From Fistulifera solaris (Eukaryota > Bacillariophyta > Bacillariophyceae > Naviculales > Stauroneidaceae): DNA of 64,000 nucleotides. Below the pieces are notes generated by a model. The model was not told where the DNA came from. It worked only from the letters and a program-made list of their open reading frames with translations, and made no database searches. The stretch is taken from the NCBI GenBank assembly GCA_030295235.1, contig AP026136.1:496001-560000 (forward strand), read 5' to 3'. Shown here piece after piece: positions 902-61,375 of this stretch (its first letter is position 1; each line of letters begins with the position of its first letter). The position numbers and the translations under genes are program-made.

Positions 902-3900
902 ATGGTAACCGAATCCATTAAAATCGATCACAACCGAATCCCCAAAACTCCGTCGCGTGATTTGCTTTCCAAGTCTCTCGACTATTCGAGCTTATGGACC
1001 CAGCAACCGCGGTACGTGAACGACACGGCAAGCAGCTGTGCATCAGGAATGATTCTCACATTTCTTTCACCAGAAAACGCCCTTATGCACATCATGTCAG
1101 CGAGCTGTCCAATATATCTCATGCAGGATACCTGCTGAAACGCAGCAATCGTCCTTATCAAACTGTGAACCCGTTTCCACGCGACGACGAAGAAGTGAAC
1201 TTCAAGTACGGACGTCCTCGATTAAAACCGATTCTGTCGTCGCAAATTGAACTGTCGGCCATTGATACGATTGAAACAATACAGCCACCGCGACAGTTAC
1301 TCCTTATACCGCATGAAGTGAACACAGACCCGGATCAACATTTGCCAGACAACAAGACGAATGAGATTGAATGCAGAAACGTGTCGACAACCAATCAGCA
1401 TGATGCCTTTGACCAAACACTGCAATTCGCGGCATCCTTTTCGGTATACCGCTTAATCTTTTACCGAAGAGCCAACAAAAGGACGTGGATTATGACGATG
1501 ATGAATTGACATTTCGGTTTGGCGATCCTTCGTCCCCTCCTTCAACCCGCAGCATACCCATTCGAACGAATAATTCGGAAGCCGATACCGAACGACCGAG
1601 TTCCTTTCGTTTTTCCTTTAGTTCGTCACAGTCCGAAGAACTGAAACATTTGGAGCACCGATCCCTCTCCGATTGCAGTCACCCGGGCGATTTTGTCGAA
1701 GACGATGGTCACATTTGGCGTGCGAGATACTGCATTTTAGAGGATGGCGTTTTGTACTTTTACCGACATCAGCAAGATGCCGAGTCACCAGAAGCTCGCT
1801 TGGAGCGTCAACAAAAGAAAGGAGGGGACGAAGCATCGAAACCACTGCCTCTTGGGTACAGCCCTACTCCCACGATTCATGCAAAAGAACGGGAGGACTC
1901 GCAGGGTGCATACTTATGGGAAAAACGTGTTGCTCTCAACTGTGTTGGAGCGGTACGTTCGGCAGAGTTTGAATACGGCAAGAACTCGTTCGAGCTTGCC
2001 GCGGTGGATGACGAAGGGGAACAAAACGACACGAAACTTGTTTTGCGCGCACAGAGCAAAGAGGAAATGAACCAGTGGATGTTTCAGTTTCACTGCTCCA
2101 TTCAGACTTATATTATGGGCATTGTGGATCATGTGGCTCCTTCACTAGGCGACATTCATCACCCATCCTTATCGATACTGAAGGGGAAAGGTAGTAATGA
2201 TGCGAAGGGGACGAATCGCCCAAGCGATACTCGAGCTCTGCCTCGGTAGCACTCAGTCCGCATTCCCGATGTAGTACAGGAGTTGGAAGTCTTCCTCCAC
2301 TGTCACACGGTCATGGACGAAACTCAATGCATCGACGCCGTGCAAGGGATAATGGGAGCGATCACATCAATATTGCCTCGTCCGTTCCCAATACGCCACT
2401 TTTGGCATCGATTCTCAGTCGGCACAAACGATCACTCGATGAAAAGCCTAGTCTTTCTCAGACAAGTCGACTTGTAACTCCCAGTCCTGTGACAGCTTCC
2501 CCGCTCTCAGCAATTTTTCCCTCGGAGAGCAGCTCACCTGAGCTCTCGGCGCCACAGACTGCTTGCCCGGAGACAGAGCATCCAATACCGAGTAAAAAAT
2601 ACGTTCCGCCACATTTACGCAATCAACAAAAATCAAATAAATACGTACCGCCTCATTTACGAAATAGAGAAGAAGCTGTTCCTAGTCGCAACGAAACGAG
2701 AAGGTCACAGTCGAATGACTACGTGCCACGGCATCTTCGGAAAACGCCGGTTGATGTCGAGCACACTATCGTCAGCTTGTCTCTGGAGGACCGTGCAGCT
2801 AGTCTTTCTATCGCTGTGCCAGATGATGACGTAAAGGCAAGCCCTTTTGCTTTTGAGGCCAAAAATATTGCAAATAGTATGCAGCGTGATTTCAAATTGG
2901 GTGGATGCGCGGACCCATCTGTCATCGCCGGCTCCATTCTAGATGGCGAGTTCATACCGCGAAAGGCCTCGCGGCTTGGGAGAGTTCAAACTGCTCCCTA
3001 CGGCTGCACTTCGAAGACGAGTACATATTCTTCGCCTACAGCTCCTGGACTTCGTTGGGAAATAGGCGCAGTGTCGGAATGCGGAGTTAGAGACTCCAAC
3101 GAGGATTCATACTTGGTTGTCAGCGATGTACTTGAGGCGTTTAAGGTTCTTTCATCAACCGACGAAACGATTTGGGATGAATTTGGAGATCATATTCCGG
3201 GACTTTTTGCTATCTTTGATGGTCACTGCGGCAACCACGCAGCTCGTTATTCAGCTGAAAAGCTCATAGAACACATTCACAAAAAAGTCAATAAGGGTTT
3301 CAGCTCAAGATACCAGTCAATTGTCGGAAGTGATATGTGGCATTATCGAACAAGCAATATTTTGTCTCGACGATGACTTTTGTAACACTTGCGTACAGGA
3401 CGGAAGAGAATGGGATTCAGGTGCTACGGCGGTGATTGCTGCAGTCATTAACCAAAATTTAGTTGTGGCTAATCTAGGCGATGCCCGCGGTGTAATGAGT
3501 CGATCTGTGGATAGCAACGAAAAAGCCAAAGACCTTTACCAAGAAGGATGGAATGAAATTCCAATCCCTGACCAGTTGTGCAGTAGACGCTGTTTCTGGA
3601 AAGACGTCACCGATACTCACAGTCCAGATCGAAACGACGAGAGGATAAGAATTCAGCAAGCCAACGGGTGGGTTACGACAGAGCAAGAAATCCCCATTTC
3701 CCAGCTCAAGCGCTTGGTGCTTGACGATCAAGATGTCGTTGACATTTTGAAACGATGCTTTGCTGATCGCTTTCAGCCGTCCCCAAGAGCAGCTGCACCC
3801 CAAAGAATCATTCGAATAGCAAGAGTGTGTGGTGAATTAGCTATATCTCGCGCCATTGGAGACCGGGATTTTAAAGCCCGTTACAATAACATAGGCAAAG

Positions 3901-4329
3901 ACAATCAGGCCTGGGATGGGTCCATCTTTTGCCCTATCCGGATGATCACAACAGATCTTTTATTGGAGATTTGGTGAGCAACCAGCCTGAATTTCAGTCG
4001 TTCCGACTCGGCCAAGAAGGAATACATGATGAATTTTTGCTCTTGGCCTGCGACGGACTTTTGGGATGTAATTGACTCGGATGATGTGAGTATGGGAGTG
4101 TTAAGGGGTACCGTTATGGAAAGGACAATTCAATTCTCACTCTATATCTTTTCTTTAGGCCATCCGAGTCACTCATGATTTGTTGTTTGAGAAAAAATGG
4201 CCCGCAAAGAAAGCAGCCGCCCGTTTGGCGGAGCTCGCAATTCACCTTGGATCCTCCGATAACATCACTGTCATGGTTGTACGATTTTTCCATGGTCCGG
4301 ACCGATATTCAGACAACGATGATTCATAA
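902..4329 (+). CDS. PH domain - YVPPHLR repeat - PP2C protein phosphatase
   Basis: Predicted Mg/Mn-dependent Ser/Thr phosphatase with an N-terminal PH domain. The start ATG 902 follows an A-rich leader. Intron 1 is 1012-1073 (GTACGT...TTTCACCAG, phase 2) and joins WTQQPR to KRPYAHHV. A second frame change near 1381-1469 is either an 89-bp GT-AG intron or a frame slip. The PH domain lies around 1690-2105 (GHIWRARYCILEDGVLYFYR and the C-terminal-helix Trp in EEMNQWMF). Three YVPPHLR-type motifs lie at 2600-2740. The PP2C domain (about 3057-4290) shows RDSNEDSYLV, FAIFDGHCGNHA, GATAVIAAV, ANLGDARG, SRAIGDRDFK, LLLACDGLWDV and SSDNITVMVV, so the metal-binding Asp residues are present. The last intron is 4086-4158 and the stop is TAA 4327-4329. 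Frame slips occur near 2200-2250, in A6 near 3287, near 3935 and in T4 near 4064. With so many, either a decaying gene or poor consensus is possible. PH and PP2C might also be two genes, but no stop or promoter-like gap separates them. Confidence 0.75.
2600..2740 (+). repeat. Three YVPPHLR-type motifs inside the phosphatase gene
   Basis: In one frame, KYVPPHLRNQQ starts at Tyr 2600, KYVPPHLRNRE at Tyr 2642 and DYVPRHLRKT at Tyr 2720. The spacing is 42 and 78 bp, and the DNA copies have diverged at third positions, so the peptide is conserved rather than freshly duplicated. YIPPHLR or YVPPHLR is the N-terminal motif of DDX3/Ded1 helicases and fits the eIF4E-binding consensus Y-x4-L-hydrophobic. 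Its role here is inference. Confidence 0.85.
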
Positions 4330-4904: not shown

Positions 4905-5746
4905 ATGGCGTCCAAAGCGATGGAGACCGAGAGCCCCGAGAAGCAAGCTAAGCCTCCTACTGTGTCAGAACACGCTCCGAACTTGGCTGGTTCGGTGATA
5001 ACAGCAGACGCTTTGGGTGACGAAAAAATTGGTAAGTTCGACAACGGTTGCTCGCCATTTAAGAGGTTTGAAGGGATTCTCATGTTTTTATCTCTCTGTG
5101 GATTTGAATTTCTTAGTCATTCGTATTCAAAATATTGCTTCCACCGTCAATCTAGGTGTTCGGCTGGATTTGAAGAAGATTGCACTGAAATGCCGCAACA
5201 CCGAATTCAACCCACGGCGCTTTGGTGCCGTCATTATGCGATTGCGAGAACCCCGAGCGACTGCTCTCATTTTTGCGACAGGGAAAATGGTAGTGACGGG
5301 CGTTCGATCGACCCACAATGCGGAATTAGCGAGTAAAAAAGTTTGCTTACATTATCGAGCGTGTGGGTTTCAAACCAACGGAAACATTTGAATTCAAAGT
5401 ACGCAATATCGTGGGTACGGCGGATGTTGGTTTTCCCATACGTTTGGAAGGATTAGTTTATGCGCACTCGGCGTTTGCTTCCTACGAACCGGAGCTCTTT
5501 CCAGGCCTCATTTATCGATTGGTGGCACCCGAAAAGGTGGTTTTGCTGATTTTTGTATCCGGGAAGATTGTGATTACCGGCGCAAAGAAAGAGTCCGAAA
5601 TATCTGCAGCCGTTACGAAAATATATCCTACTCTGTTGGAATTTAGAAAAGCACACGTCGCAGCTCCATTGATTCCTCCCGAACCGGCGGCCCCACCAGC
5701 AGCCCTGGCTGACGATGAAACGCTCAAACAAACGAGCACGTTATAG
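4905..5746 (+). CDS. TBP: TATA-box-binding protein
   Basis: General transcription factor that bends TATA DNA and nucleates Pol I, II and III initiation in the nucleus. Exon 1 is 4905-5031, a short acidic N-terminus. The intron is 5032-5116 (GTAAGT...TTTCTTAG, phase 1). The conserved core follows as two imperfect direct repeats. Repeat 1 has [39 protein letters not shown] and [10 protein letters not shown]. Repeat 2 has [40 protein letters not shown] and [12 protein letters not shown]. One frame slip lies in the A6 run at about 5335-5340, where removing one A restores [14 protein letters not shown]; with that base removed the length is exactly 252 codons including stop. The C-terminal tail after the second repeat is Ala/Pro-rich. 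It is convergent with COX17, with 62 bp between the stops. Confidence 0.95.
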
Positions 5747-6384: not shown

Positions 6385-7722
6385 TCACTTCTTCTCGGAC
6401 TTATCTCGGGCAATATCCATATCTGGACGGACCTTCCTAATTTGTGCTACGATCTCTTCGACCTCGGTCCCACTAGCGTTTCCACCGATGACAAGAGAAC
6501 GTAACCGTGAAGGACCTTCAGATGATGATTCTCTTTTCAGGATTGCTTTCAACAAGGAAACAACCGAGTTGACGTCGGCACTGTTTCCAGCAAGATCTAA
6601 AATTTCCAGTTGAGGGGCCACACTGCTATCGTCAACGAGCTCCGAGATTGCTAAGAATCCTTCCGAACCCAGTTGGTTGTTGAATAAGCGCAAGGAAACT
6701 ACCCTGCTCTGCGTCAAGACAGTGCAAGCACCTTGTATTCCGCAACTTGTCTCACTCAGATCGAGAAATTGCAAAGAGTTGTCGTTGAACTTAGCAAATC
6801 CTTTGCTGACTAGCCAGCAAACTCCTTTTTCGGACAACGGGTTACTTGACAAGTCGAGCTTTTGAAGGTAACGCAATGTGCCCAACTGTTCATTTTCTTT
6901 ATTATACAGGCAAGCAATCAAGCTAGGGATACCTTCGAAACTAATGTTGTTTCGTGAAAGATCCAACGATACGATCGCTGACGATCCGAACCATGATAAC
7001 ACTTCCATTCCTTCATTTCCGATATTACTGTTGGAGATGTTCAAAGTACAAATATTCTCCATGAGTGGCTCCAGCGATCGTAACCCCTCCGGACCGAGTG
7101 GATTGTTCGAAAGTAAAAGTGTGCGTTTTACTTGAGAGGATGCGAATTTTGCAAACAAAGCGGAAGCAAATGAATGGGTGATTCCACAGTCGGAGAGATC
7201 GAGTTCCGCTATATTTTCGAATAAAGACGAGGCTGTAATTGCTGCTGCATCCTGCCCAAGGAGAAGGTTCCGAGACACGTTCAAACTCTGGAGCGTTGGT
7301 GATACTCCCAGTGTCTCGAGGACCGACTGAAAGCCCGTTGTAGTCATGTTTTTGTAGCTCAAATCGATCACTTTTAATCGGTGTTGCCGACCCAGTGCAT
7401 GACACAACGCCGAAACACCTTCATCTCCCATGGAACGATCACCAATCGCCAAAGAATCCAGGGGCGTTAAGTGATTGGCGGCAATGGACTGTCCCAATTG
7501 TTGAAGCAATGTGACGGATAAAACATGTCCCGATGCACTCAAAGACATCCAATGCGTGTTTGAATTGCTGTCCAGTACTGCACAGAGACGATGAACTTCA
7601 TCGGCACCAAACTGTTTGGTGGGCAGAATTACGAGATCTTTGAGAGTCGGATCATTCCGTTCGATGCGCTGAATGAGAGAGTCACAAGATCGGAAGGTCG
7701 ACGATACGCCCCAAGCTGACAT
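6385..7722 (-). CDS. Leucine-rich repeat protein (ribonuclease-inhibitor/RanGAP type)
   Basis: One uninterrupted 445-residue frame with no intron. From about residue 90 it consists of LRRs of 26-30 residues in the RI-like pattern: LKVIDLSYKNMTTTGFQSVL, LQSLNVSRNLLLGQDAAAIT, IAELDLSDCGITHSFASAL, ICTLNISNSNIGNEGMEVL, LQKLDLSSNPLSEKGVCWLV and LEILDLAGNSADVNSVVSLL. No transmembrane segment or signal peptide. RI-like LRR proteins serve as protein-binding scaffolds (RanGAP, NLR sensors, dynein regulators). No catalytic RanGAP arginine or other enzymatic domain is recognisable, so the partner is unknown. It is divergent from the fibrillin gene, with 305 bp between starts. Unlike its neighbours it shows no frame slip. 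Confidence 0.85.
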   Translation of the reverse strand: MSAWGVSSTFRSCDSLIQRIERNDPTLKDLVILPTKQFGADEVHRLCAVLDSNSNTHWMSLSASGHVLSVTLLQQLGQSIAANHLTPLDSLAIGDRSMGDEGVSALCHALGRQHRLKVIDLSYKNMTTTGFQSVLETLGVSPTLQSLNVSRNLLLGQDAAAITASSLFENIAELDLSDCGITHSFASALFAKFASSQVKRTLLLSNNPLGPEGLRSLEPLMENICTLNISNSNIGNEGMEVLSWFGSSAIVSLDLSRNNISFEGIPSLIACLYNKENEQLGTLRYLQKLDLSSNPLSEKGVCWLVSKGFAKFNDNSLQFLDLSETSCGIQGACTVLTQSRVVSLRLFNNQLGSEGFLAISELVDDSSVAPQLEILDLAGNSADVNSVVSLLKAILKRESSSEGPSRLRSLVIGGNASGTEVEEIVAQIRKVRPDMDIARDKSEKK

Positions 7723-7876
7723 TCTGAAAGATTTCGACTTTGATTTGAACGAATGATGATATATTGTGTTTATTCCTTTGTTATTTAGCCTATTCGCGTC
7801 CGCCTTCCACCACTTCTTTTCTTTTCCGGGAAAATTTCTTTTATTGGATACGATGAGACGAAATTGATGGGCGGCC

Positions 7877-7898
7877 AGTCGCGCGCTTTCGCGCGACT
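7877..7898. promoter_or_regulatory. Perfect 9-bp inverted repeat in a divergent promoter
   Basis: AGTCGCGCG, a 4-nt CTTT spacer, then CGCGCGACT. It lies in the 305-bp gap between the divergent LRR gene (start 7722) and fibrillin gene (start 8028). It could be a dimeric factor site or a hairpin in the fibrillin 5' leader. Function inferred only from position and symmetry. Confidence 0.4.
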
Positions 7899-8027
7899 TT
7901 CATGGCTGTATCTTTGTCTTTTTTCCTTTTTCATCAGCCACAACTTCAAAGAAAAAAACGTTTGACAGCGAACACTTTGCTTCATATCATCAATTTACAA
8001 CCCGCCCACACTTTTTTCAAAGGCAAT

Positions 8028-15636: not shown

Positions 15637-18600
15637 ATGTCATCGAAACCGTTGAAACAAGGAACGCTCTTTTCGTTCTTCAATAAACACCAACCTCCTG
15701 CCGCACCTGCAGTACCAGCAGTACCGAAACCAAAGGACGCATCCGAACCAGCCACTACAAAAGATCCTTTAGTGAAAATAGGAGATCGTATTGAAGTGTA
15801 CTGGAAAGACGATCAAGAATATTATGCCGCCAAGGTAACACAACAACGTCAGGCTTCCTTCTTTTGGAGTACGACGATGGTCAAACGGAATGGCTGGATT
15901 TAGCACAGGAACAATTTCGTATTCTTCCGAGTAGTCGTTCGAAACACCGACGATCGATTCGAGATGATGATGATGAAGAAGAAGAAGAAGAAGCGGAATT
16001 TGATGGGACTTTGGAAGAATCCGACGATGGATCGGTCTACGAAGACAAAGAGGAACCGCAGGACGATGTTTCCGAAGAAGACAAATGGCTCGTCTCGGAT
16101 GAAGAAGAAGAAGAAGAAGAAGAAGAAGAAGAAGAAGAAGAAGAAGAAGAAAAGCGGCCTGAGAAGAAACTCAAAGTGACGAAACACAAAGCAACGCCCG
16201 AGTTAAAAACACCTTCGGCAAGCAAAACGACGGCTTTTCAGTTCGGGCACACACCCAAGAGTGTCATTACACCGTCTTCCCAATTCTCCCCTCTGGTCGT
16301 ACCTACACCTGTGGCAGCAACTACCAATACTACTGCTAACAAAGTCGCGGCAACTTTTGCGGCTAACGAAAACAACAAAGTCACGCCCTTCGTGAAAGAC
16401 GCGGTCAACCCCGCGGGGAGTCATGTGCACAATCATTTGCCATTTTTGCAGAATCCACGTGATTTGCAACGACGATCCCCGGACGACCCTCAGTACGATC
16501 CACGGACTTTGCTCGTGGTCGAGCGGGATTGGGTCAAAATCATGGGCAAGGAAATGACGGACGCCGTGAAACAATGGTGGGATTTGAAGTCGCAATACTT
16601 TGATACTGTTCTGTTGTTCAAAACCGGTAAGTCGTCTGGGGGTCTCGTTTAAAACAAAAAGTCTTCCGCCTCACGCATTTGGAAACCAGGCAAATTTTAT
16701 GAAATGTTTCACATGGGTAAGTGCTAATGGGGAGTGTCGCTGACAGAACGTTCCGTGTTGAATACTGATCCTATTCTTTTCATGTATTCTTCTAGACGCG
16801 GACGTCGGGGTCCAGGTACTCGGATTGCTCTACATGAAAGGCATCGTGGCGCATGCGGGGTTTCCCGAAATTTCCTACGGGGCCATGGCGGACAAATTAG
16901 TTCGTGCGGGGTACAAAGTAGCCCGTGTGGAACAGACAGAAACCCCAGAGCAATTAAAAACTCGCAAGTCGCAACACAAGAAAACCAATGGTCCGTCCCC
17001 CAAAGTTGTCAATCGTGAAGTATGCTCGGTGATGACGCTGGGCACTCGGACGTTTTGCTACCTCGATGACGGAAAGGATGTCCTGGACGAAGGCGGTGCT
17101 GTTGGGCCATTACTCGCCATCCGTGAAATTTTGATCGATCATGATGTGGAGGAAGAAACTGATGTGGTCCGACCTGTTTGCGAGTATGGTATTACTGCGA
17201 TTGATGCTATACGTGGTGTTGTGACCATCGGTCAGTTCGCGGATGATGTTTTGCGAAGTCGCATGAACACTCTTTTGGCTGCGCTGGCTCCGTCAGAGGT
17301 GCTTTTGCAAGCCGGCGTAGATGGAGCCTCCCCCTGTACTGGAATCACTGATCAAAACGCATCAAAGCATGTGCCCGCATCCATTTCGAGTTGAAAAAAT
17401 CAGGGTAGAGGAAAGCTTCCCCAAATCAACTGCACTCAGCCCGGAAGTACGCCAAGCCATGGATCGAGGAACCGGACGATTTGTGGGTGCGGTTCATCCT
17501 TGGGATGTAGAAGAAACAGTTCAGGAACTGCATCGTCGACGCTACTTTCCGCAGGCATCGAAATTGTCTACTGATCGATTTAGCGCGTCCCGTTGGCCTC
17601 CTGTCTTACGTTCAGCAGTTGAAGGCAAAGCCGATTTGGCCATGAGCAGTTTCGGCGCAGCTCTCTTTTACCTACAACGTAGCTTGATCGATACCGAGAT
17701 TCTCACCATGGGTATTGTGAAGGCCTATGTCCCACCGTCTTTGGCAAATACTGACGCTGAAGTTCGTGAGACGATGCAAGTGCTTGCAGCGCAAGAAAGT
17801 CGCACATCCATCGAGGGAGCGATAGCAAATCCTGCTAGTGTACCTGCACATAAAGAAGGAAGCGAAGGTACAAATTCTTTTTGGCTGAGAGCCAGATCGA
17901 CCACATGCAGCTGGACGGGACGACGTTGCACAATCTAGAAATTCTCACAAATGCCGTCGACTACAAGGTGGCTGGGAGCGTGTGGTCCAAAATCAACTAC
18001 ACCAAGACACCACATGGAGCGCGCCTTCTTCGAGCTTGGCTTCTAAGGCCTCTATTTCGGAAAGCGGATATTGACCGACGAGCAGATGCAGTTCAAGAGC
18101 TTGTGTCTGGTGCTGCTGCGGTTGCGCTGACTGAAGCCTCTGCAGTGCTTGCAAAATGCGGTGATATTGAGCGCTTGCTAAGTCGTATTCATAGTATGAG
18201 CGGTAGTACTGGCTCAGAACAAGACGATGACAGCGAAGGTATTCATCCTAGCAATCGAGCCGTTTTGTACGAAGTAGGAACGTACACGAAGCGAAAAGTC
18301 GGGGATTTCTCGAAGATTTTAAATGGTTTGCAGCAGGCAGCCCAGGTCCCTGAAATTTTTCAAGGAATAAACCTTCAAAGTAATCTTTTGCAAAAGATTG
18401 TGCGTTCAGTCGATCAAGGAGGATGTTTTCCGAATATGAGCGATCAATTGGATTGGTTCATTTCGAACTTCGACTGTGACAAAGCAGCCAAGGGTCTTTT
18501 CGAGCCTAATAGAGGTATTGATGCAGCGTACGACGAAGCTTGCGAGACTATTGATCGCATACAAGCTGATTTATTGGAATTCAAGAAAGTTATGTGCGAT

Positions 18601-20023
18601 ACCGTTTTGAAGCCACGATCGTTGGCGACATCATCTTGGAAGTATGTGAATGTTAACCCGGAATCAAAAGACAAATATTTAATCGAACTTCCTGCGTCGA
18701 TTGCTGTCCCGGACGATTTTATCATGAAGGGGAAGAGAGGAAGTGGTTCGAAACAAGTCAACAAATACCAGACTGCAGCCGTGCAAGAGTTAGTAGATGA
18801 ACTAGAGCACGCTTACGAAGTCCAAAAAGAACGAAAGTCGAAAGGTCTACAGCTCATATTTGCGAAATTCGATGCGTCGAGGAATGTTTGGGCGGCGGCT
18901 GCTCAGGCAACGGCTCTGCTCGACGCCCTTGGATCCCTAGCTCGTGTTGCTTCAAAGGCAGGATACATTAGACCAACTATTCTAGAGTGCTTTCCAGACG
19001 ACTCGCCGAAAATAAATATTGTACAAGGCCGACATCTTTGTGTTGAGAATAACATGGGGTCAACTGGTTTCATTCCCAACGATCTGAGGCTGGGTCTCGA
19101 AACAGCAGATGACGTAAGCCCTCGTGTTCTTCTCCTCTCCGGTCCCAACATGGGTGGAAAGTCTGTAAGTCATGTCTTGTCCGAAAAACTTTCTTCCTTA
19201 TTGCTCAATACAGCCTCTAACCGGCACCGTCCTTTTTCACGCAGACTTTACTCCGCCAAACATGTTTGATCACAATTTTAGCTCAGATTGGAAGTTTTGT
19301 CCCCGCCGAGAAATGCGAGATCACTCCCGTCGATCGCATATTCACACGGCTTGGTGCGTCGGACCGATTGCTTTTAGGTCAATCAACTTTCTTTGTTGAG
19401 GTAAGTGCTTCTGTTGGGCAATCGTTTAAATTTGTAGATGAGCAACAAACTGATCACCTTGGCTCTCTTAGCTTGCAGAAACTGCAGCAGCGCTTCGGGG
19501 TGCAACTCGCAGGAGTTTGGTCATCATGGACGAACTAGGGCGTGGTACGAGTACTTTCGACGGCACGGCGATCGCCAGTTCCGCTGTTAAACATTTTGTT
19601 GAGAGAAGTAAATGCCTTCTGCTTTTTGCGACGCACTATCATTCCTTGTTGGAGGATTGGAAAAACAAATCGAGTGTCATTCTTGGGCATATGGAATGCA
19701 TCGTTGGAAATGGTTCTTCTGAAAATGAGCAAAGTGGAAACGACAATTCCATCACCTTTTTATACACTCTCGGGTCGGGTGTCTGTCCCAAAAGCTTTGG
19801 CATCAATGTCGCCAGACTCGCCGGAATACCGGAAGATGTTTTAGTGAAAGCAAAGTGTATCAGCTTGGATTTTGAAAAGGAATTGCAAGGGAACGACGAC
19901 ACTGTTCGCGTTGTCACGGCCAAAAATGCACCCGCTCTGCAATCGAAAGTGAAGGATGCTATTGAAAGAAAAGATTGGGAATCACTATATACAATCTGGA
20001 AGCAGTTACAGCATTTAAGCTAA
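15637..20023 (+). CDS. MSH6: DNA mismatch repair protein MSH6
   Basis: Subunit of nuclear MutS-alpha (with MSH2), which recognises base mismatches and small loops. Order: N-terminal PCNA-binding box QGTLFSFF; Tudor-like domain ([19 protein letters not shown] ... [11 protein letters not shown]); poly-Glu acidic linker; MutS domain I with mismatch-binding FYE; connector and core; ATPase with Walker A GPNMGGKS and Walker [16 protein letters not shown]. Five exons: 15637-16626, 16690-16716, 16796-19164, 19245-19400 and 19472-20023; introns 63, 79, 80 and 71 bp. The 27-bp second exon encodes KFYEMFHM, the mismatch-contact motif. Frame slips lie near 15855, in C5 near 17325 and in T5 near 17880, each with conserved sequence on both sides. 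About 1,360 residues, normal for MSH6. Convergent with SF3B3, 53 bp between the stops. Confidence 0.95.
16101..16152 (+). repeat. GAA trinucleotide repeat encoding poly-Glu in MSH6
   Basis: About 17 consecutive GAA triplets in the acidic linker between the Tudor-like domain and MutS domain I. A shorter GAT/GAA run lies at about 15964-15995. The linker is expected to be disordered, so length changes in multiples of three should be tolerated. Confidence 0.9.
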
Positions 20024-20076
20024 AAGACGAATTACAACTCATAGTGCGTAACAATAAAATCGAATTTTCATGACAA

Positions 20077-23000
20077 TCAATGCAGTGCATTACGAGTGTC
20101 TTCCAACTTTTCATAATATCCCCAGGACTTCGTTCAAGCTCTGCCGCAATTTTGGTTTGCTTATCATGAGGCAAAGAATTGAAAGCTTCACACAATTCAC
20201 CATCAATAACGTGTAGTGCTGGAGCATAGTAAGACCTATACGACTGATGGTCGCGGCCTGTAGGGCGAAGAACCTCAGTTCGCAAGGCCGTCTCAAGTTG
20301 CGTGAAGAATTCGACATCAGCACGGGAAGAGAACGGAACCAAAGCACCGATACGGCCGCATGCGGTGACGTAAATAATTGACTCTGCGCCACCTGCGACC
20401 AGTGAAGAACGAGTCATTGCCGTCACAACCTCCCCGACATAGTACTGGCAAAGAAGTTCTAGCTTCGGCGTTGAATCACTTCTAGACGAATCCCACAGGA
20501 CTCGCTGCCAGGACATGTCGATTGCACCCGCCTCTGCACCTCTCGGCATCCGAAGAATTGATATGTTGCCGAATTTATCGCTAACTGCAACTGTATTGAA
20601 ATCAAGCAGCTCTTGGGACACGATTGGACGGGGACTTGGATCAATTGCCAAGGTAACAAAGCGATTCGCCATTGCATCGTAACGAAAAACTTGTATAGAC
20701 TGCATCATATCACCGACAAAGGCACGGTCGCCAACAGTTTGAATGGTCTTTACGAAAGTTGGGAGCCCACGCTGCTCACACTTTCGCAGCAGCTGCCTCT
20801 TCCCCATTTCAAATAGGCGGAGTGATTTACCAATCCCTGCAAGCAGTCGACCTTGGAAATGAGCCAACGCAAGCACCGGTCCATCCTCTACAGCAGTCCT
20901 GTGCAGCAACTGCAAGCGCCCACCATCGACTACTCGATATAGAACAATGTGGCTTGCAACCTGTTTGAGAGGATTCATAGTCATTCCAGTAACTGTGCCT
21001 ACTGCAAGGAGGGGTTCACCACCTTTCGAATGATAAAGCGAACAGAGGCGCAACAAAGTGCAGCCTCGTTTCGTCCCATTTCGATACAGTCTAGAGTCGA
21101 GCAGTTGGTCGACGGGTCTAAGAGTCGGATACAAGACCCCCATGTTCCCGGCTTCGAAGGCAAGGGGCCACGGACAGGTGTTTTTCGTGCATCATTTTCC
21201 TCTTCATCTTCATCGCCATCACCTTCAGGTAAATCCTTTTTCTCTCCTTCGTCGTCACTATCTTCATCCATATCCATGGCGTCAGCATCGTCACCCTTCG
21301 ATGACAATTTTGCAGTCGGATCAAAGCCCATTGCTTTCTTCTCTTCCAAGCCATACTCGTTGCAGTCACTTTCCACGACAACCAGAACAACCTTTCTCTG
21401 ATCAGTTGTATTACTGACGGACACCAGGGTCATTTGGCGTGGTGTGTATCGTAGGTCGGTTTTATTGGTATTAAAAGCTTCATCATCGCCCCCGCCCATG
21501 CCATCCGTGTTTACTGATAAGATTCGCAGCGTTTTCCCTGCAGTTGCAACTATGCCCTCGGGAATGGCATCAGAGCGAAAGGAGCATCCGTGGTCTAAAG
21601 GAACATACGACAAAGGAGCCATCAGATGCTTTCCCGTCGATTCATCACGTCTGCTAATCCAAGGTCTAGATGACAAAAGGAGCGTGGACTTTTGACCATT
21701 AAGTTCAATACGTGAGACGGAAACAGGAATCGCTCCAAGAAAGCGGCGTGAAGGGCTTGCTTCAACGGATCCGGTGACTGGATCTAGGAAGACTCGAAGT
21801 GAGCTTCCGTCGTCTAAACCAATATTTAATGTCAAATCATCCTGTCCGTTTGGTTTGCCTTCCATATCTACCCCCTTGATGCTTTGAATAACGACGGAAT
21901 GCGGCCTGGATTTCAGAGCCAAGCTACTTTTTTGAGTCAACAATTGCCCCGGTTCCAAGCTTACAATACGAACCGTTTGATCACGACACCCTATTGCCGC
22001 GAACAAACTTCGACTCTTTCCACTATCAATAATTCCAATATCCAGGCAGCAAACATCAGTTCCCATATCCTTCGTGGAGCTTTCCGTGAGGTTAGCGCTA
22101 ATAGCGTCGAGTTCAAAGTAGATGATTTCTCCACCGGCCAAGGCAATGAGAACCTGGCTGGTATTGGCACTGGCGAACTCAATTCGCTTCAATCCTGGGC
22201 AATGCCATTGCCGAGCTTGGCCTTTCTGAATGTGACGAACTCCGGCTGGATGAACTTGACAGACAGACCCATCTTGACCTAGTGCAGAGCAAGCTAAAGT
22301 CGGGGCGGTAATCAAAAGCCAGACTCCTTACCCACCTCTTCGACCGATTCACCCACACTCAAAACAGAGTGGCGTCAGCGAAGCTGACTACAATATACTG
22401 ATCCTTCTCCCCGGAAGCGTCTGCTACTGTAAAAATTCCACCTGGTACTCCGGGAAGGTCACTCACCGCCAATTCGGTAACAGCAGCACCGTGTCTCATG
22501 GTTCGAATGGTGCTATGAGGACCACGGCCTGTCAAGGTGTAAATCTGGGGACTAACTTCGTTCCCGGCCAGCTCGCCCACCAAGATATTGTTGGTGGGCG
22601 CTGCATTATCTAATGACCAAATCTTACGCAGATTCTGCAGTCGAGTGACCGGAGCGAATGTCTTGGCCAAAGACACGGCCTTGGCAGTGGTCAGATCCGT
22701 TTCCTCCACGGATGTGTTCGACGGCGCATCGGGCAAATCAATTCGCTCGAATTGGTACAGTGCATGGTCCCCGAATTCAGCCGCAACAAATAGCAGTCCC
22801 AATTTACTGACATTCAATGTATTGGCTGTGGGTAATGTATCGAGAAAGGAAACTTCCAAGCCACAAACTGCGGACTTGTCCTCGTTGAGCGCAATCGAAA
22901 CCTTGTACACATCACCCAGTTCCGACTGTGCCAAGGCAAAGAATTTGGCCTTTTTCTGACGGTGTACCGTCAATGTCGTAATCAATATACCCTTGGAGGT

Positions 23001-23850
23001 ATGCATTTCCCGGCGAGGAATGGGACACACGATCTGATTCTTTTCGTGCACATAGTACAACCAATCCTCCGCACCCATCAAGACTCCGCCGGGTCCGTCG
23101 GCTCCGCCCGGCAACGCCGCCAGAGAACAGGCAGTTAGGGCCACCGGAGTCGCCCACCGCCGACTGACGTGATTCAATCCCAAATCGAGTTCATAATACG
23201 CCAATTGCAGTTCCGGTTCGATGTTGTTTTGTTCCGTTTCTTCCGGATACTGCCATTCCAAAGTCGCAAAAATCGGATTGTCGTAGCCATTGTCGAGTCC
23301 CACGGTGGCCAAAATCAAGTTGCGCGTCCGATGTGCTTCGAGGGGACTCGAGAGGGTGGTCTTCCCGTCCGCATTGCGGTTCAACACGTACACCAATTGG
23401 CGTTTCTCGACGGCCGATACCATGACCGCGCGTCCTTTCGGATCGGCCGCGAGATACTGACCGGGCGTCGCCCGACGACAACCAGTTTTACCGAATGTGA
23501 CATTGTGAAGAATTTGGAAGGGTTGGAATTGCAGAATTGACAAGGCACCGCTGTCGGATGTGATCACCAAGACATCGTGGGAGGTTCCGGGAAAACGGAC
23601 GGCCACGCCGTGACGCAAAATCGATCGCGTTTCGACACGCGTCAATAGATGGCATTTTTCGTCCGACAATTTGTACAATTCAATGACACCACTGGTTTTC
23701 AGGAGAGCCAATTCGTGGGGTCCGGTGAATTCCCCCCAAAACGGATTGTACAATGGCGGTCGATGGTTGTAAACGAAGATCGAGCAGTTTCATGGCCACC
23801 GCATGGACCGGCTGTGCCTCGATCTCGTCTACGACGGCATTGGGGGGCAT
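20077..23850 (-). CDS. SF3B3: Splicing factor 3B subunit 3 (SF3b130/Rse1)
   Basis: Triple beta-propeller scaffold of the U2 snRNP SF3b complex, paralogous to DDB1 and CPSF160. From ATG 23850 (MPPNAVVDEIEAQPVHAVAM) the protein has VITSDSGALSILQF, FGKTGCRRATPGQYLAADPK, GRAVMVSAVEKRQLVYVLNR, AYYELDLGLNHVSRRW and GPGGVLMGAEDWLYYV. Further on are PTLACSALGQDGSVCQVHPA, LIALAGGEIIYFELD, FQGRLLAGIGKSLRLFEMGK, QLLRKCEQRGLP, VSDKFGNISILRMP and KLEDTRNALH at the end. An acidic insertion (DMDEDSDDEGEKKD) precedes the third propeller. No intron found. About five single-base frame slips (G6 near 23745, two T4 runs near 22320-22365, one near 21030, A4 near 20110) are needed. Their sum keeps 3,774 nt, a multiple of three (about 1,257 residues; human 1,217). 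These are read as assembly indels. Confidence 0.94.
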
Positions 23851-35229: not shown

Positions 35230-38200
35230 CGAGAATTGCTTTCCGATGTTTGACGAAAAGGTCGAGTGTGAGCGGCTTTGTCAAGATATCTGCGGTTTGT
35301 TCGAGAGTATCGATCTTGTGAATTGTTATATCTCCACTATCAACGTATGATCGAAAATGGTGCAGTTTGACATTCAAATGTTTCGTTCTTGGTCGAGCCT
35401 TCGGAACTTTTGCTATTTCCAGAGCTCCCGAGTTGTCTTCGAATACTTTGCAATGAACCTTCGGTCTCCATTCTTTTACGTCAAATCCGAGTGATTGCAT
35501 TTCCTTCAAAGTATTCATGATGGGAATTGCATCTCTAAGTGCATAACTCAATCCAGTAAATTCGCTCTCTGTGGAACTCAATGCAATTTCTGTCTGAAGT
35601 TGGCTTTTGTGATGCAATAATATTCCGGCGTAGGTGATGAAAAAATCCGTGTCGGGAGCGAGCTGTATTGCGGTCCTCAAAAGCTATCTCTGGATCCCAA
35701 TTGCCTGCGAAATCGGCGTCAACATGAACTTCCAAGCTTCTAGAAACGTCCGGGTGCAAAATCATTCCTTTGTCTCTTGTTCCTATCAGGTATTTTGTGA
35801 GCCATCTCATTGCATCTCCATGTTCCTTTCTTGGGTCTGACGCGAAGCGCGCATTGATGGACTGCATAAGCGATGTCTGGCCTGGATCCTCTCGTGAGGT
35901 AGTTCATTTTTCCTATGACTGAAGTGTAATGAAAACTTTTGTCAAATGGCGGTGATTTGGGATGTTTCGAAAGTAGCTTTGATGATGCCATTGGAATTTC
36001 CTTTGTTTTAATTTCCTTCTGGTCGAATTTCATGTCTTTGATTATTGAGTCGATAAGATGCGGTTGCTTCAATTCGATTGTTGATTCGTCAATTCTGTTG
36101 ATGTTGACTCCCAGAAAATCCGATAAATCTCCCTCAACTGTAATGTCTAGCTTGATCTGTTTCATCTTTTCAATAATTTCTTCAATCTCTTTCTCATTTG
36201 GACCTCCAAGAATACTGTCGTCGGTATATAGGACATACATCGTGCCCTTGTAGTAAAATACACACTCGTCGTACTCCGATTGCTTGAAACCAATCTCAAA
36301 TAGCTTCTTTCGCAAATAAAGGAACCATGTTCGACTTGCATCCTTTGCTCCATAAACATTCTTGTGGACTTTCAGTACATAATCATCTGGGGATGCTCCG
36401 TGTATTGTATATCCCTTTGGAATGGACAGATAAATTTCTTTGTCGCGTGGCGCTTGAGGAAATGCCTGAACATAATCAAGTTGTTTTGTATGCCAACCAT
36501 GTATGATCACCATTGCAAGTAACAAGCGGATTGAAGTCCAATTAGCGACTGGAGAGTAGGTCAGTTCATAGTCGCGACCATATTTCATCCGTGACCCATC
36601 AATTGTCAGTCGCGCTTTCCACTTTTTGACTTCACGTGTCATAATGTCTCGTTTGCGACGAAGTTGCCACACCGTTGGAAGAATCGTTGCTCCCTCTGGA
36701 ACTTGACTTCTTGGAAATAATGAGAAATTTCCATTTGCCATTTGATCCTCAATTTCGGTATCCATTCCTTTGGAAAACTCCGGCCAATCGGGTTCTTTGC
36801 GAGCTTGATGCAAATACATTGAGTCAGGATCGGCACTTGTCTTAAAAACATAGAATGGATCTGGTGGATTGAGTTTTGCTGAGGCAGTTTGAAGAGTTTC
36901 GTAGGCAAATAATTCCCCTTTGATGGCGGCCGATGATTGACTGAGTTCATTTACAAACATTGCAACCATGATCTCTATTAATCGAGTAACGGGACGGCGT
37001 TGGCGAGTGCTTCGTCTCTCCCTCTGAGATGGTGGTGGCGGTGGATCGGAAAGGGGCTCAGGTTCAGGTTGATGATCGGTGGATGGAACAGTGTCATCAG
37101 GTTGATCGGTGGGCGGTATCGGCAAAGGAGAGAGGTCGGGAATCGGAGAAGTGGGTGAATCCGACGAGGAAGGCGCTGATTGTTGAAGGGTTGTGCTTGG
37201 AGCGACAAGAAAGCCGGCTTTGAGTTGCCATAAACATGTTTTCGCAAGGTCCGGAACAGTTTGGAATTTCGAATCAAATTTGACGTGAAACTGGGGACTG
37301 ACGAGTCCTGTGTCGGGGTTCAGTACCAGGGCGACAGAACGACTGTGTACTGGAGATCGTCCCAAATAAATTCCGAGATGCGAGCGGAGACGCCATTTGT
37401 GAAATATCCGACTTTTTCCTCCTTGGAGCGCGGCATCGAGCACAAAGACTGGGCAACCGAAAGGTTTCCAATGAATTGGATTCGAATGAATCTCCGTGTT
37501 GGTGAAAAGTTGGTAAGGTGTACGGCGCTCAGCGTGTTTCATGTTTGGCATGTGATTGATGGAATCGTTGGCCATTCGTAAAGCGTAAGGCCACAGGTGG
37601 GTAGTGATGGCTTGCGGCCACTTGTGTTGTGCGTCAATTAACATAGCGCGAGTGAGTTCCTGCAGTTGTCGAATGCGGCGTTCAGCTCGTCCATTTTGAT
37701 GATGGGCTCCCACTCCGGCAAAAGAAAGACCTTGACCATTTGTTGCGCAATCGTTGACCCAGGTGTTTGAATTGAAAATTCCGTTATCAGCATGATAGTG
37801 TTTGATCTTCTCAACTCCACAATTGCGAGCGTATTGTTCAAATGCATGCTTTGCTTCCAGAGTCTCAGTCGCACTTTGTGTCTTTTGCAGATGAACATAA
37901 CTCAAGTTTGAATACAGGTCCACGAAGACTGTTGCGTATAGATAGCGCTTCGTTGTCAGAATTCCTGTAAGCTGAGCAATGAAGCCGGGAGTAGGAGAAT
38001 TCATTTGATCCACAGCAACAACTTGTCCAGGGTGAGTAGGTTTTTGAAGCTCTTTACCCTGTTTGGCTGGTTTCGTTCGCCATTGACGCTTGGTTGCTTT
38101 TCCATAAAGACAGGCAGTACATACAGGTGTCGGGCATTTTGCGAGTCGGCGTGGAAGAACGCCTTGCTTTGCTAATTCTTGAAGCTTTTCCATTGGTGCG

Positions 38201-38900
38201 TGTCCATAGAGTCGATGGTAGGTAAGTAACTCTGCTGCTGGAACTGTTTGAGTTGTTGCAGTGTCACTTTCTTGAACCACGGCTTTGTCTGTGTTGCCGT
38301 CAAACTCGAAGTCGACTGTACGGCTTTGGAACGGTGCTGCTCCCTCTGAATCTGCATTTTCTCCCTCTGAAGCGACTGGGGTGTCCGCGTTGGCATCGAA
38401 ACAAAGCGGATCATCGTCTTCGTCGTCAGTAATTGATGCTTTGGTGCAGAAGGCTTCAAAGTTGCGGAAGCCAGGGGCTGAGTAAAAGGTTGCGACGTTT
38501 GAACGAGGATCAATTGGAATTGTCTTCTTGTTGCTGCCCCAATAAAGAATCGCGTGTTTGCTTGTTGTATCACATCCAGAGAGTTTGTGTCTGGTGTATT
38601 TTGCCCAATGTTGCGGTGATAAAAGTCTGACCTTGCCGTCTGGTACGTAATATGAATTTGGAATCGTGAAGGATGTCATCTTGCCCTCATCATTTTCCCA
38701 TGACCATTTCAGAGTTCCTTTCATCACGTTGCTGGTGCGAGTACCACCAAAGCCCTTGATAATCAAATTTGTTTCTTGTAATTCCCCAACAAAGTCCGTC
38801 AGCGACATGGGAGATGCATGCTGAGCATCTATTGTCGACACCCACTGGAACGGAGTCGGTATCAAAAGTGGTGGTAAGTATTTGTGGGATCGCATTTGCA
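35230..38900 (-). mobile_element. pol region of the copia element
   Basis: Protease-like, integrase, reverse transcriptase and RNase H segments in copia order. Recognisable pieces are the zinc-binding pre-integrase segment (LLTYHRLYGHAPMEKLQELA), the integrase core around NSPTPGF, HADNG and HHQNGRAERRI, the reverse transcriptase around KARLTIDGS, KQLDYVQAFPQAP and YVLYTDDS, and RNase H around SSTESEFTGLS. Largely open but not whole. Confidence 0.9.
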
Positions 38901-39679
38901 CTGAAACACATAGCTGTCATCATCAGCACATATCTCCTTTGACGCACTTTTCGCTGTCTCCACCATCTGGCTATTGGATTGCGGAATCGAATGAGCGCGT
39001 GTGAGAAGTGTATGTTGCCTTTCGTGCTGCTTGTTTCCTTTTGTGAAGGATTGCGTGGGACTTGCAGTTTCGTGTATCCATACTGTGTGAATGCGGACCA
39101 GGTAAGTCTGAATTGGACTGCAAACGCGTTGACCAAATGTTTTCAATCGCTTGCTAATGGGTTTCTTTCGAAGTCTCTTAGGAATATAGCAAGTTGCTGA
39201 CGTCATTAAAATGGTCAAAGAACAAACAGTATATCAGGGATGCGGTGAAGATAAGTAGCCAGTCCCAGCTAAAGCTGAGGTACCGCCAGATGGACTTGGT
39301 TAGTCATTCGCTGTCGCTTGCCGTTGTCACTTTCATCCGAGTACTCTTCGTCATTGTCGTCTTGTTCGCTGTCGCTATCGTCAAGGAGTGCAGCAAGAGC
39401 TTTGACAAGTCGCTCTTTCTTTGCTTCAGGCTTCGAGGTTCCCGGTTTTCTAATGTTGGCTTGGCGACAATCAACCATCTTGTGTTTTCCCCACGAAGTT
39501 GTGCTTATCGCACCAGAAGTACTCGCTTTCGACTGTCTTCTGCTTTGGCTCGTCATCCTTGGGAGGTACCGACATCCAGTCTGGCTTTGGAGTGTTTCTG
39601 TTGCGTTGGGGTTTGCCTTTTACCTGGTGCTTTGGCTTGTTTTCGGTCTTTTTCTTGCTTTCCAACTTTTGAAGTTTTG

Positions 39680-44817: not shown

Positions 44818-47323
44818 TTACAGCCATGTTTGTTTCTTCATTTTCTTCGCCGCCATTCTATCGACCACAAGCACAGTAACCAACAAAGCAGCGACAACCA
44901 GGGATAGTAAGGGACGATTAAAACTGTCTGGGAGCAGGTCAAAGCCTCTAGCTGGCGAAGTTCGAGCAAAGAAGATGTCGGGGCCACCGAAAGCCAAAAC
45001 TAAAGACTGCGACTCCAAATCAGTTGAGGCGCTGATTACGGTGTGCGCAGACTCTACTGTCTGATTGTAGTTGATCGTCATGTAGGGAACAATAGGGATG
45101 AGTTCAGTATACGGACGCAATCCTTCTTTCTTCTCGGAGTCCTTTAATTGCCCCAAAGGTCGCCGTGGGTCTACCAATTTTCTGTCCACTCCTGTAATTT
45201 GACCATCAACAGTTGCCAACAGTAGTCTTCGACTGCTGATTCCACTTCTCGAAGTTGTGACCCCAAGAGCAGACACTGGCTTAGCCAAGCTATAAAGCTT
45301 CGAAAGTACGACAGGCTTAGAATCGCGGGCATCAAGACTTGAAAACGTTGACGAATACTCTGGTGACGTGAATGCCGTCACTCCCTTGCTGCCAATCATC
45401 CCCTCGTACTTTTCAGAGTTAAATGTTAGTGTTATGATTCCAAGGACAAGAATCAGCGACGAGATGAGCAATCATACATTCTTACCAAGGATAAAACACC
45501 AAGCTCGGATCGTCGCGTTTTGGAGTTTCCGAAGGTATAGTAAATCCAATTTTCCGAAATGACAGCTTGAGGCTTAGGAAATTTGGCCGCATTAGCGTGA
45601 CTTACACGGTACAAAACTTGACCAGATACGGTATCGACCACATTGATAAACAGATTAGGTTTGGTACTGGGTACACTGACCTCCATGCTATCAGACTCGT
45701 CTGTGGCCCCAACTGGTTTTCGGTTGACTTGAAACATTGCAGACACCATTTCATCATCTTTGTAGCTTGAAACCTTCTCGGTGATAAAAACCGCTAAATG
45801 CGGATTCAGATATTTGAGTAAAAGAGAGTCGTCTCCCATAACTGAACAAGGGGATTGCACCGACTCTTGTCGCGGAGGATACGCTAAGCTAATAATCTTT
45901 TCTCCGTCAAAAACTGTCGAGCCCATCGTAAGTCGGCTGGTGCCTCGAAGCAACAAGGTCTTGATGGAGTTCTCCTTATCCACTACGTGTGTATAGAGCC
46001 CTGATTCTGGGATGGTGACTTCATCGCTACTTGGAATAGAGTGGATGCTCTGATCCTGAGTTAGTATGAGCGCCCCTTGACGACAATCGGTTGAACTGGT
46101 CTCGACCGGGATGATTTGCGCGACAGGCGATTTCAGCTGGATGGCGCCCTTTGCAAAAGCTTGCCAGTTGGCCCATCCCAACAAATCCACTCGAGTTGTT
46201 CGTTGCGAATGTTCGATAAAGCCAAGTAATCACCGTGATCACCGTGATAGCCGGTCCCAGGACCACCATGGACTAATCGGTGCCAATTTGCTTCAGGTAA
46301 ATCAATTTGGTAACGAATATTTCGATCAATTGTATCTAAAGCCCAGATTCGATTCGCCGACGTCGACATAAGGATTGCGATCTTGACAAAACCAAATAGA
46401 TGGTTTCGTCGGTCGCTGCGTTCGGTGGTGAAAATTGAGGTGATGGCCTTCCACTGGGATTGCAATCGATTCGGCAACGAAAGCAAGTCGTGCGATGTAC
46501 CTTCTCCACCCACATAGTGACTCGCATCTACCAAAGAACCCACTGAAATAGTTGACAACCCTTCTTCTGCTTGCCAAAGAGTTGTAATTTCCTTCTCTTC
46601 AATTGCAATCACCTTAGTGGTACCGCGTTGCGTGGATATCAATACATGTGCTACTGTGGCTGAACATTTCAAAAAAGTAACAAGAGCAATCGGATCAGTC
46701 TCGGATGAAGCTTCCCATTCCACTGCGAGCGAGTCTTGATTTCCGTTCGCAGAATCCCAAACTTTTAAGGCGGATCCTTGAAAATTCAGTAAAAGCTTTG
46801 CCTCCGCACAGAACGTTACAGGTTTCACGTCAGTGATTCGTCCAGATTTTTCTGGAGCTAGCGCACCTGTTGCCATGTGAAAATAAGAATAACTATTTCC
46901 TCCACAACTCGCTACGACATAATCTTCATTCTTTTCGGTGACAACCCCCAAGCGCGGGGTGCAATTCGGAGAGACAACGACTACATCCCAAGCCAGAAGC
47001 CCATTTTCCGCATGCCACGCTCGCAAAATTCCATTATCATCTAAAGTAGTCACGTACTTCGATCCTACCGCCATCGCGTGACCTTTCCCGGTGGTAGACG
47101 AACAAACATTGTGCCGCCAGAGTAAGGAGCCGTCACCAATGTTACGGCTGGCCGTGTAACAAGAGTCGGGGTTGCTGGTGATGACAGCATCGTGAATCGC
47201 GTAGGCTACTTGAACAGGTCCATGACCTGTTGTGGCGATATGGAAATCGAGTTGACCGGCCTCTTCTTCAAACAATGCCGAAGAGAAAGGGGCGACAACC
47301 CAAAGGAAAACCCAAAATTTCAT
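44818..47323 (-). CDS. EMC1: ER membrane protein complex subunit 1
   Basis: Largest subunit of the EMC insertase, which places tail-anchored and multi-pass proteins in the ER membrane. Start ATG 47323 begins a signal peptide (MKFWVFLWVVAPFSSALFEE). A PQQ-like luminal beta-propeller follows (GDGSLLWRHNV, LAWDVVVVSPN, YLALSNIRNEQLEWICWD). After the intron come the DUF1620 block (SSRRLLLATVDGQITGVDRK, LVDPRRPLGQL, LIPIVPYMTINYNQTVESAH) and a C-terminal transmembrane helix (LLSLVVAALLVTVLVVDRMA) with a KKMKKQ tail. Intron 45409-45485 on the minus strand (77 bp) restores LSLYEGMIGSKGVTAFTSP. One frame slip lies near 46150 (GPTGKLLQ to KGAIQLKSPVAQ); with it the CDS is 810 codons. Human EMC1 is longer (993), so the propeller is compact. 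Confidence 0.93.
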
Positions 47324-47953
47324 CACGAAAAATGAAAATGGAGAACAGTACTGTTGCAAGCTTCAAAGAAGAGTTGAGCAGAAAACTTTCTATGGAGAAG
47401 CTATCAAGTAGGAAAGGAAGTGAACAGAAACTTTGCTTTTGCTTTATGCGCAATACGGTTATGTTGCAAATGAATGATATCCATTTCATCGCCATCGTCG
47501 CTACCGTATCGTCGTCGCTTTGCAAAATCTCGCGTCCTGCGCCGTGTCGCAAAATATGATGCCGTAGCGGAGGACAGACGCTTGTAGCTCGTGACCCGCG
47601 ACTCGTGACTTACTTATCCACGAATTATCGTCTGTGCGTCGTCACGTACATCACTCTCGTCTGCCAACTGCCAATACCCAATACCCTGGTACAAAGTACA
47701 AAGTAAGAAGAAAAAATTGTATGGAGTAAAAATTAAAAAATCGCAACATGAGACATGAGCATATCCGACTTGATCTAACCATACGAAGAATAGCTGGACG
47801 GATCCCCAAAGCTTAAAAATCAAATGAATAAAAAAATGACAAAAAAGAGGAAAGCAGCCAGGTTGAGCGGCTCGCAGCAGACGGGAACGAGTACAAAGCA
47901 AGACGACAGGACCGAGAATTCTTCCTGCTGTATCCGAGTCACAGCGAATAGAC
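47324..47953. other. Intergenic, divergent promoter
   Basis: 630 bp between EMC1 and the JmjC gene. An ATACCCTGGTACAAAGTACAAAG element lies near 47680-47702. Frames at 47614-47955 (minus) and 47230-47559 (plus) have no recognisable content. Confidence 0.5.
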
Positions 47954-60534: not shown

Positions 60535-61375
60535 TAACTGTATACATTGAAGACTCGGGTTTCAAGGCTATTTATATTATTAATAACAACATTACACAAA
60601 ACACAAATCTAGCTTAGACATTCGAAAGTCTATATTGCACCGAGGGATTGGCTCACAAGTATGGCGAAGCTCGTTGCAGAAGTGTGTGATTCGCCCTTCC
60701 GAAAAACGGCGTTCGACATACATGTCAAAAGTAAGATATATTCTGGGCTAGCATCGGAACTAACGGAGTTCATCACCGTTATTGAGGCTAAGCTTTGCTG
60801 AATCTATAGATACACCTTGACCCTCGGGATTTGATGATGTGGTTGACGACGAACGACGGACTGATGTCTGGGTGTCAGAAATTAATCGGCACTCGAAAGA
60901 ACTCTCGCTCACCGCTGTAGGAGCGAAGTGTAGTCGTTTCATGTGTTCAGGTACATTATCGAATGCCGCGGACATTCGTTATTCAACCCAAAGTACTCTT
61001 GGTCAGAGTCTTTGCAATTGCGTCAGATCACATGAAATCTCGAACCGCGACAGCATCTTCCACATCAACCATCAACCAGCTTTTACCGGCTAGGTCTCAA
61101 AATGCTGCTGCAATATTCCATGCAAACCAAGTTTATTTGAAGTGCCTAACAACCTACTTCATCATCGAGGTCTCGCCTAAGTGCTTATTGTAGCTGCAGA
61201 GATGTGTATATCAATCAATAACCTCGGGAGCGATTGCCAACTGCGGAATACGACACAACAAAATGCGTGCCCCACGCGTTCTCGTGAAAGTATTTCCGTC
61301 AAGTCCTTACCAACCGCGGTCGTGAAATTGCCTTGGCGATACTTTCTTTGGCCCTTTTGCAAATAACGTAGAAGA
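60535..61375. other. Intergenic between tandem GLTP paralogues
   Basis: 841 bp. Only unsupported short frames (such as 60839-61093 plus, 60760-60975 minus). No readable remnant of a third GLTP copy was found. Confidence 0.5.

Follow-up and report, generated by a model that had tools for sequence, protein, structure and literature searches.

Described phosphatases and the YVPPHLR motif

The DEAD-box helicases Ded1, DDX3 and LAF-1 carry a single Y[VI]PPHLR peptide in the N-terminal tail (for LAF-1, see the sequence table in PMC4822317), and whether the ligand of this peptide is eIF4E, eIF4A or another protein is unsettled in the literature. Here, we describe a gene for a predicted PP2C phosphatase in the diatom Fistulifera solaris, found in a 64,000-nucleotide stretch of contig AP026136.1 (assembly GCA_030295235.1, positions 496,001 to 560,000, forward strand; hereafter the window, with position 1 as its first letter). 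Two intact copies and one degenerate copy of the same peptide lie in the reading frame that leads into the PP2C domain. The combination suggests a phosphatase tethered to the translation machinery.

In yeast Ded1, eIF4A is reported to be bound by the blocks at residues 21–27, 29–35 and 51–57, with R27A as harmful as changing the whole 21–27 block; Y21A had no significant effect in vitro and affected growth in a ded1-ts strain, and eIF4E binding was mapped to residues 59–89 (PMC7343385). YVPPHLR has been named as the eIF4A-interacting motif of Ded1 (PMC11917139). In DDX3X, changing residues 38–44 to alanine greatly reduced co-purified RPS11, eIF4E, eIF4G and eIF4A, and a peptide of residues 33–51 caused minimal nuclear magnetic resonance (NMR) shifts of yeast eIF4E, which the authors ascribed to an arginine at the place of the hydrophobic residue (PMC11251518). 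A review states that direct DDX3X–eIF4E binding was mapped to the motif by Shih 2008 (PMC9642913), a study cited for the importance of Tyr38 and Leu43 in eIF4E co-precipitation (PMC3510515, PMC9642913, PMC11251518). For eIF2A, mutants of YRPPALR did not abrogate eIF4E association, and the authors left open a second initiation-related protein as the true receptor (PMC3510515; the eIF2A motif is also treated in PMC7139343). The same paper lists eight human proteins in which a match is conserved (eIF2A, DDX3X, DDX3Y, TDRD3, NOM1, CDV3, ZC2HC1A and eIF3g); its authors regard every highly significant human hit of the consensus, CDV3 aside, as translation-related, although the available part of its text does not state the link for ZC2HC1A (PMC3510515). 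Lastly, RYVPPHLR of LAF-1 is reported to show high contact propensity in simulations (PMC5798848).

Few phosphatases tethered to initiation factors are known, and work on eIF4E phosphatases was called "paltry" by the authors of the study on human PPM1G (PMC11306785). PPM1G is a PP2C enzyme for which eIF4E is both a substrate and a direct binding partner, contacted through Y85xxxxL90 with Gln as the next residue (PMC11306785). Its short YxxxxL motif thus has no hydrophobic residue at position 7, and the enzyme is a direct precedent for the idea, part of the original prediction for this locus, that a PP2C may act on the cap complex. It differs from the gene described here in having one motif, not of the YxPPxLR form, where an acidic region begins, and the available part of its description mentions no PH domain (PMC11306785). 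In domain content, the closest system is PPM1 of another stramenopile, Phytophthora sojae, an active phosphatase with an N-terminal PH domain and a PP2C domain, and the sole PH bearer among the 29 PPMs of that species; the available part of its description, on which our comparison rests, does not mention YVPPHLR repeats (PMC10925823). PHLPP1 and PHLPP2 also have PH and PP2C domains (PMC10925823), with an array of leucine-rich repeats (LRRs) between them, and a case has been made for PHLPP as a pseudophosphatase (PMC13358185). The PH-PP2C layout is therefore already known. A search of the open literature on the motif and on PH and PP2C proteins in stramenopiles and diatoms, together with a few subscription papers, found no paper recognizable as describing a PP2C with YVPPHLR. 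The original prediction that no PP2C of this layout had been described thus fails for the domains, given P. sojae PPM1 and the YxxxxL motif of PPM1G, and holds for the combination with YVPPHLR, which is apparently undescribed.

Two intact and one degenerate motif copy

The open reading frame (ORF) listing and a six-frame scan place the three copies on the forward strand at 2597–2623 (copy 1, KYVPPHLRN), 2639–2665 (copy 2, KYVPPHLRN) and 2717–2743 (copy 3, DYVPRHLRK), all within the single ORF 2201–3376. They correspond to residues 546–554, 560–568 and 586–594 of the protein obtained by reading through the frame breaks described below. The original prediction had placed three motifs at 2600–2740, which is correct to within a few bases. 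KYVPPHLRN does occur twice; the third motif does not stand as an equivalent copy, since it lacks the second proline and falls outside the published consensus YxPPx[ILMVA][KR] (ELM LIG_eIF4E_2 type), which two of the three copies fit. The proposed likeness to Ded1 and DDX3 is exact across YVPPHLR, and copy 2 (KYVPPHLRNREEA) resembles DDX3X outside the core too (grYiPPhLRnreat, table in PMC3510515).

Across all six frames of the window, YxPPx[ILMVA][KR] is limited to copies 1 and 2, and Y.P.HLR to the three motif copies; when the residues of the motif ORF were shuffled, at least one Y.P.HLR arose in 37 of 200,000 trials. Between copies 1 and 2, six of the nine codons are identical and three differ silently by one base each, with no replacements, whereas copies 1 and 3 share two identical codons and differ by four silent changes and three replacements. 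In 904 of 100,000 simulations, copy 1 still encoded the same peptide after three random changes; the figure presupposes descent of the copies by duplication, itself an assumption. Furthermore, only 7 of the 18 flanking bases on either side are shared between copies 1 and 2. Taken together, the shuffles, the silent-only differences, the simulation and the dissimilar flanks argue that the motifs are neither chance matches nor a fresh DNA duplication. The simplest reading of the silent-only divergence between copies 1 and 2 would be that the peptide is under selection.

The motifs had also been said to fit the eIF4E-binding consensus, and here the prediction was not borne out. The canonical YxxxxL-Phi motif needs a hydrophobic residue at position 7, which is arginine in all three copies, and the repeats were therefore rejected as canonical 4E-binding motifs. 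The sole match to YxxxxL[LMFIVWA] is YSAEKLI (read-through residues 763–769), within the PP2C domain, and PPM1A bears YCCEHLL at the aligned place. Such matches inside the PP2C domain probably reflect the fold and not eIF4E binding.

The 52-residue motif stretch had no match up to E 10 in a PDB sequence search. In the region of the motifs, Pfam gave a match to CDV3 below the cut-off of 27 bits (E 0.36, 11.8 bits; E 0.61, 11.0 bits), which was given no weight as evidence. Between copies 2 and 3, the sequence RSQS (2702–2713, forward strand) has the RxxS pattern and could be a phosphosite that controls the cluster; a non-overlapping scan of the read-through protein counts nine RxxS, and the site may mean nothing.

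PP2C and PH domains

Both domains of the original prediction were recovered with Pfam. The PP2C phosphatase domain (PF00481) lies at 3047–4296 on the forward strand, with computed bounds that span frame breaks and a likely intron. Its E value is 2.3e-21 on the raw ORF 3270–3974, which holds most of the match, and 2e-41 on the read-through domain; on the motif ORF alone it is 0.16, under the Pfam cut-off. In a PDB sequence search, the best-scoring entries were Arabidopsis-type PP2C 57 (2.2e-18) and PPM1A (1.2e-17). All three of the conserved segments FDGH, ACDGxWDV and GSxDN are present, as FDGH, ACDGLWDV and GSSDN, and align with the matching segments of PPM1A, ACDGLWDV being read-through sequence because it crosses a frame break. 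In PP2C enzymes, such segments hold metal-binding aspartates. The PP2C assignment is made with confidence, and the product is predicted to be a Ser/Thr phosphatase.

The PH domain (PF00169, E 3.5e-8) lies upstream at 1713–2087 on the same strand, at residues 101–225 of ORF 1413–2246, and had no significant match in the PDB sequence search (best E 0.21). The common phosphoinositide signature of PH domains has a basic residue early in the domain. This domain has Glu and Asp where that residue would be placed, which makes it premature to call the domain membrane-binding.

Ded1, DDX3 and LAF-1 bear their motif on a helicase, whereas here a DEAD-box helicase core was found neither in the scanned ORFs of the gene nor in the window at large, where 32 of the 39 ORFs of at least 180 residues were scanned. 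Unlike PHLPP1 and PHLPP2, the gene showed no LRR family in the Pfam scan of ORFs 1413–2246 and 2201–3373. An LRR-bearing ORF at 6388–7899 of the window is on the minus strand.

Gene structure and frame breaks

The likely first coding exon (902–1011, forward strand) consists of an ATG and an open frame beginning MVTESIKIDH and is followed by GTACGT; the likely intron 1 (1012–1073, forward strand, GTACGT...CACCAG) has splice-like ends that would join two open frames. A likely last intron (GTGAGT...TTTAG) is placed at 4086–4158 on the same strand. At least five frame breaks, visible as overlapping ORFs, interrupt the gene. Each is assignable to a place where one base occurs three or four times in a row, with the exact position within the overlap chosen, and reading through them gives a protein of 1,097 residues.

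ORF 2201–3376 stays open past the motifs and covers the beginning of the PP2C domain with its FDGH segment; as far as 3270 at least, a single raw frame joins motifs and PP2C. The PH domain occupies a frame other than that of the motifs. The claim that the motifs lie between PH and PP2C thus holds for the order on the strand; for a single protein it is inferred across one frame break.

Frame breaks raise the concern that the motifs belong to bad sequence or a decaying gene. The adjoining TBP gene (5101–5743, forward strand) is also split over two frames, and its halves match Pfam at E 2e-26 and 8.9e-30. Genes of the MutS type (16762–19266, forward strand), the RSE1/DDB1/CPSF1 type (19962–23789, reverse strand) and EMC1 (44821–47362, reverse strand; its middle ORF was left out of the scan) likewise occupy overlapping or adjoining ORFs, as if frame-broken. 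We conclude that the assembly carries uncorrected single-base errors and that the phosphatase gene is probably intact in life, because the neighboring TBP is broken too while both of its halves match strongly. For the same reason, a pseudogene was thought unlikely. Against the at least five breaks in the gene stand these similarly affected neighbors and the unbroken motif frame 2201–3373, and we regard an artifact or decaying gene as the source of the motifs as extremely improbable.

What the motif cluster may bind

The explanation we tentatively prefer, at a little under even probability, is that a PH-PP2C phosphatase docks through its YVPPHLR cluster on eIF4A/eIF4F or an associated factor rather than on eIF4E. 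The gene would encode a Ser/Thr phosphatase whose long, perhaps disordered linker bears a cluster of two intact docking peptides and a third, degenerate one. The YVPPHLR peptides would bind an initiation component, either eIF4A or a factor associated with eIF4F or the 40S subunit, with eIF4E itself less likely. The enzyme would be kept beside phosphorylated initiation factors, which would become its substrates, and several copies would raise avidity; docking would probably be multivalent.

Docking is favored by the exact motif identity, the silent divergence of copies 1 and 2, the single raw frame from the motifs into PP2C and the Pfam matches for both domains. An initiation partner, eIF4A in particular, is favored because the Ded1 block binds eIF4A (R27A), because the DDX3X 38–44 mutant loses initiation factors, and because most human proteins with a conserved match act in translation. 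PPM1G, held on eIF4E by its YxxxxL motif, makes such an arrangement plausible for a PP2C. A fuller version, in which the PH domain anchors the enzyme and the Ded1-type array engages eIF4A/eIF4F multivalently, so that the dephosphorylation of initiation factors would be tied to signals from membranes or lipids, appears doubtful.

Several observations weigh against docking on the initiation machinery. Copy 3 has degenerated at the second proline, and joining the PH domain to the motifs would mean crossing one frame break. In Ded1, eIF4A binding also needs the neighboring blocks 29–35 and 51–57, and the DDX3X motif is dispensable according to work cited in PMC12418388. Relatives did not turn up either: no stretch matched the protein in a viral contig collection, and of 26 pattern-matching stretches for the raw 391-residue ORF in a prokaryote contig collection none was confirmed. 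In the viral collection, KYVPPHLR occurs in three stretches and YVPPHLRN in one. With ORFs listed for three of these four stretches, the match lies opposite longer ORFs in contigs L001 and L003, and in L002 (1181–1203, forward strand) a plausible 305-residue viral protein ends in SKYVPPHLRQV, by chance or not. The motif of L002 thus stands in a viral protein with no evident translation link.

The original prediction had the repeats acting as non-canonical 4E-binding motifs and the enzyme as an eIF4E (cap-complex) phosphatase resembling PPM1G. The role of Tyr38 and Leu43 of DDX3X in co-precipitation (Shih 2008, as cited above) speaks for it, and PPM1G, with Gln after its YxxxxL, indicates that eIF4E can be bound without a hydrophobic residue at position 7; direct eIF4E binding stays alive through this precedent. 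Nevertheless, the reported NMR shifts of eIF4E with the DDX3X peptide were minimal, the Ded1 block binds eIF4A while eIF4E binding maps outside the motif, and eIF2A motif mutants keep eIF4E. eIF4E as the direct ligand is consequently doubtful, and we consider this explanation unlikely. A partner outside translation, or a lineage-specific expansion without function of weight, would account for the viral KYVPPHLR of L002 and the erosion of copy 3; it fits less well with copies 1 and 2, which differ by silent changes alone and have dissimilar flanks, and seems distinctly unlikely. The repeats might also be stickers through which the protein associates with itself or is drawn into RNA granules, instead of docking sites for one protein, as the LAF-1 simulations and the repeated occurrence of the peptide in a polar linker of low hydropathy (by a crude measure only) would allow. 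The rest of the linker is not RGG-like, however, and the exact preservation of copies 1 and 2 would better fit a specific receptor, which makes stickers very unlikely.

If the fuller version, with a PH anchor and multivalent docking on eIF4A/eIF4F, is correct, the gene would encode a dedicated initiation-complex phosphatase of a construction unlike PPM1G. As a non-helicase with two perfect copies, the protein would also offer a clean test object for the ligand of the motif, free of the RNA binding of DDX3 and Ded1.

Other genes in the window

A Ty1/copia-like retroelement is present on the reverse strand at 35743–38916, as an ORF of 1058 residues with an RVT_2 match and a gag_pre-integrs match below the cut-off. 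Two neighboring ORFs on the forward strand (58612–60531 and 61326–62858) each contain a GLTP (glycolipid transfer protein) domain and are possibly a tandem pair.
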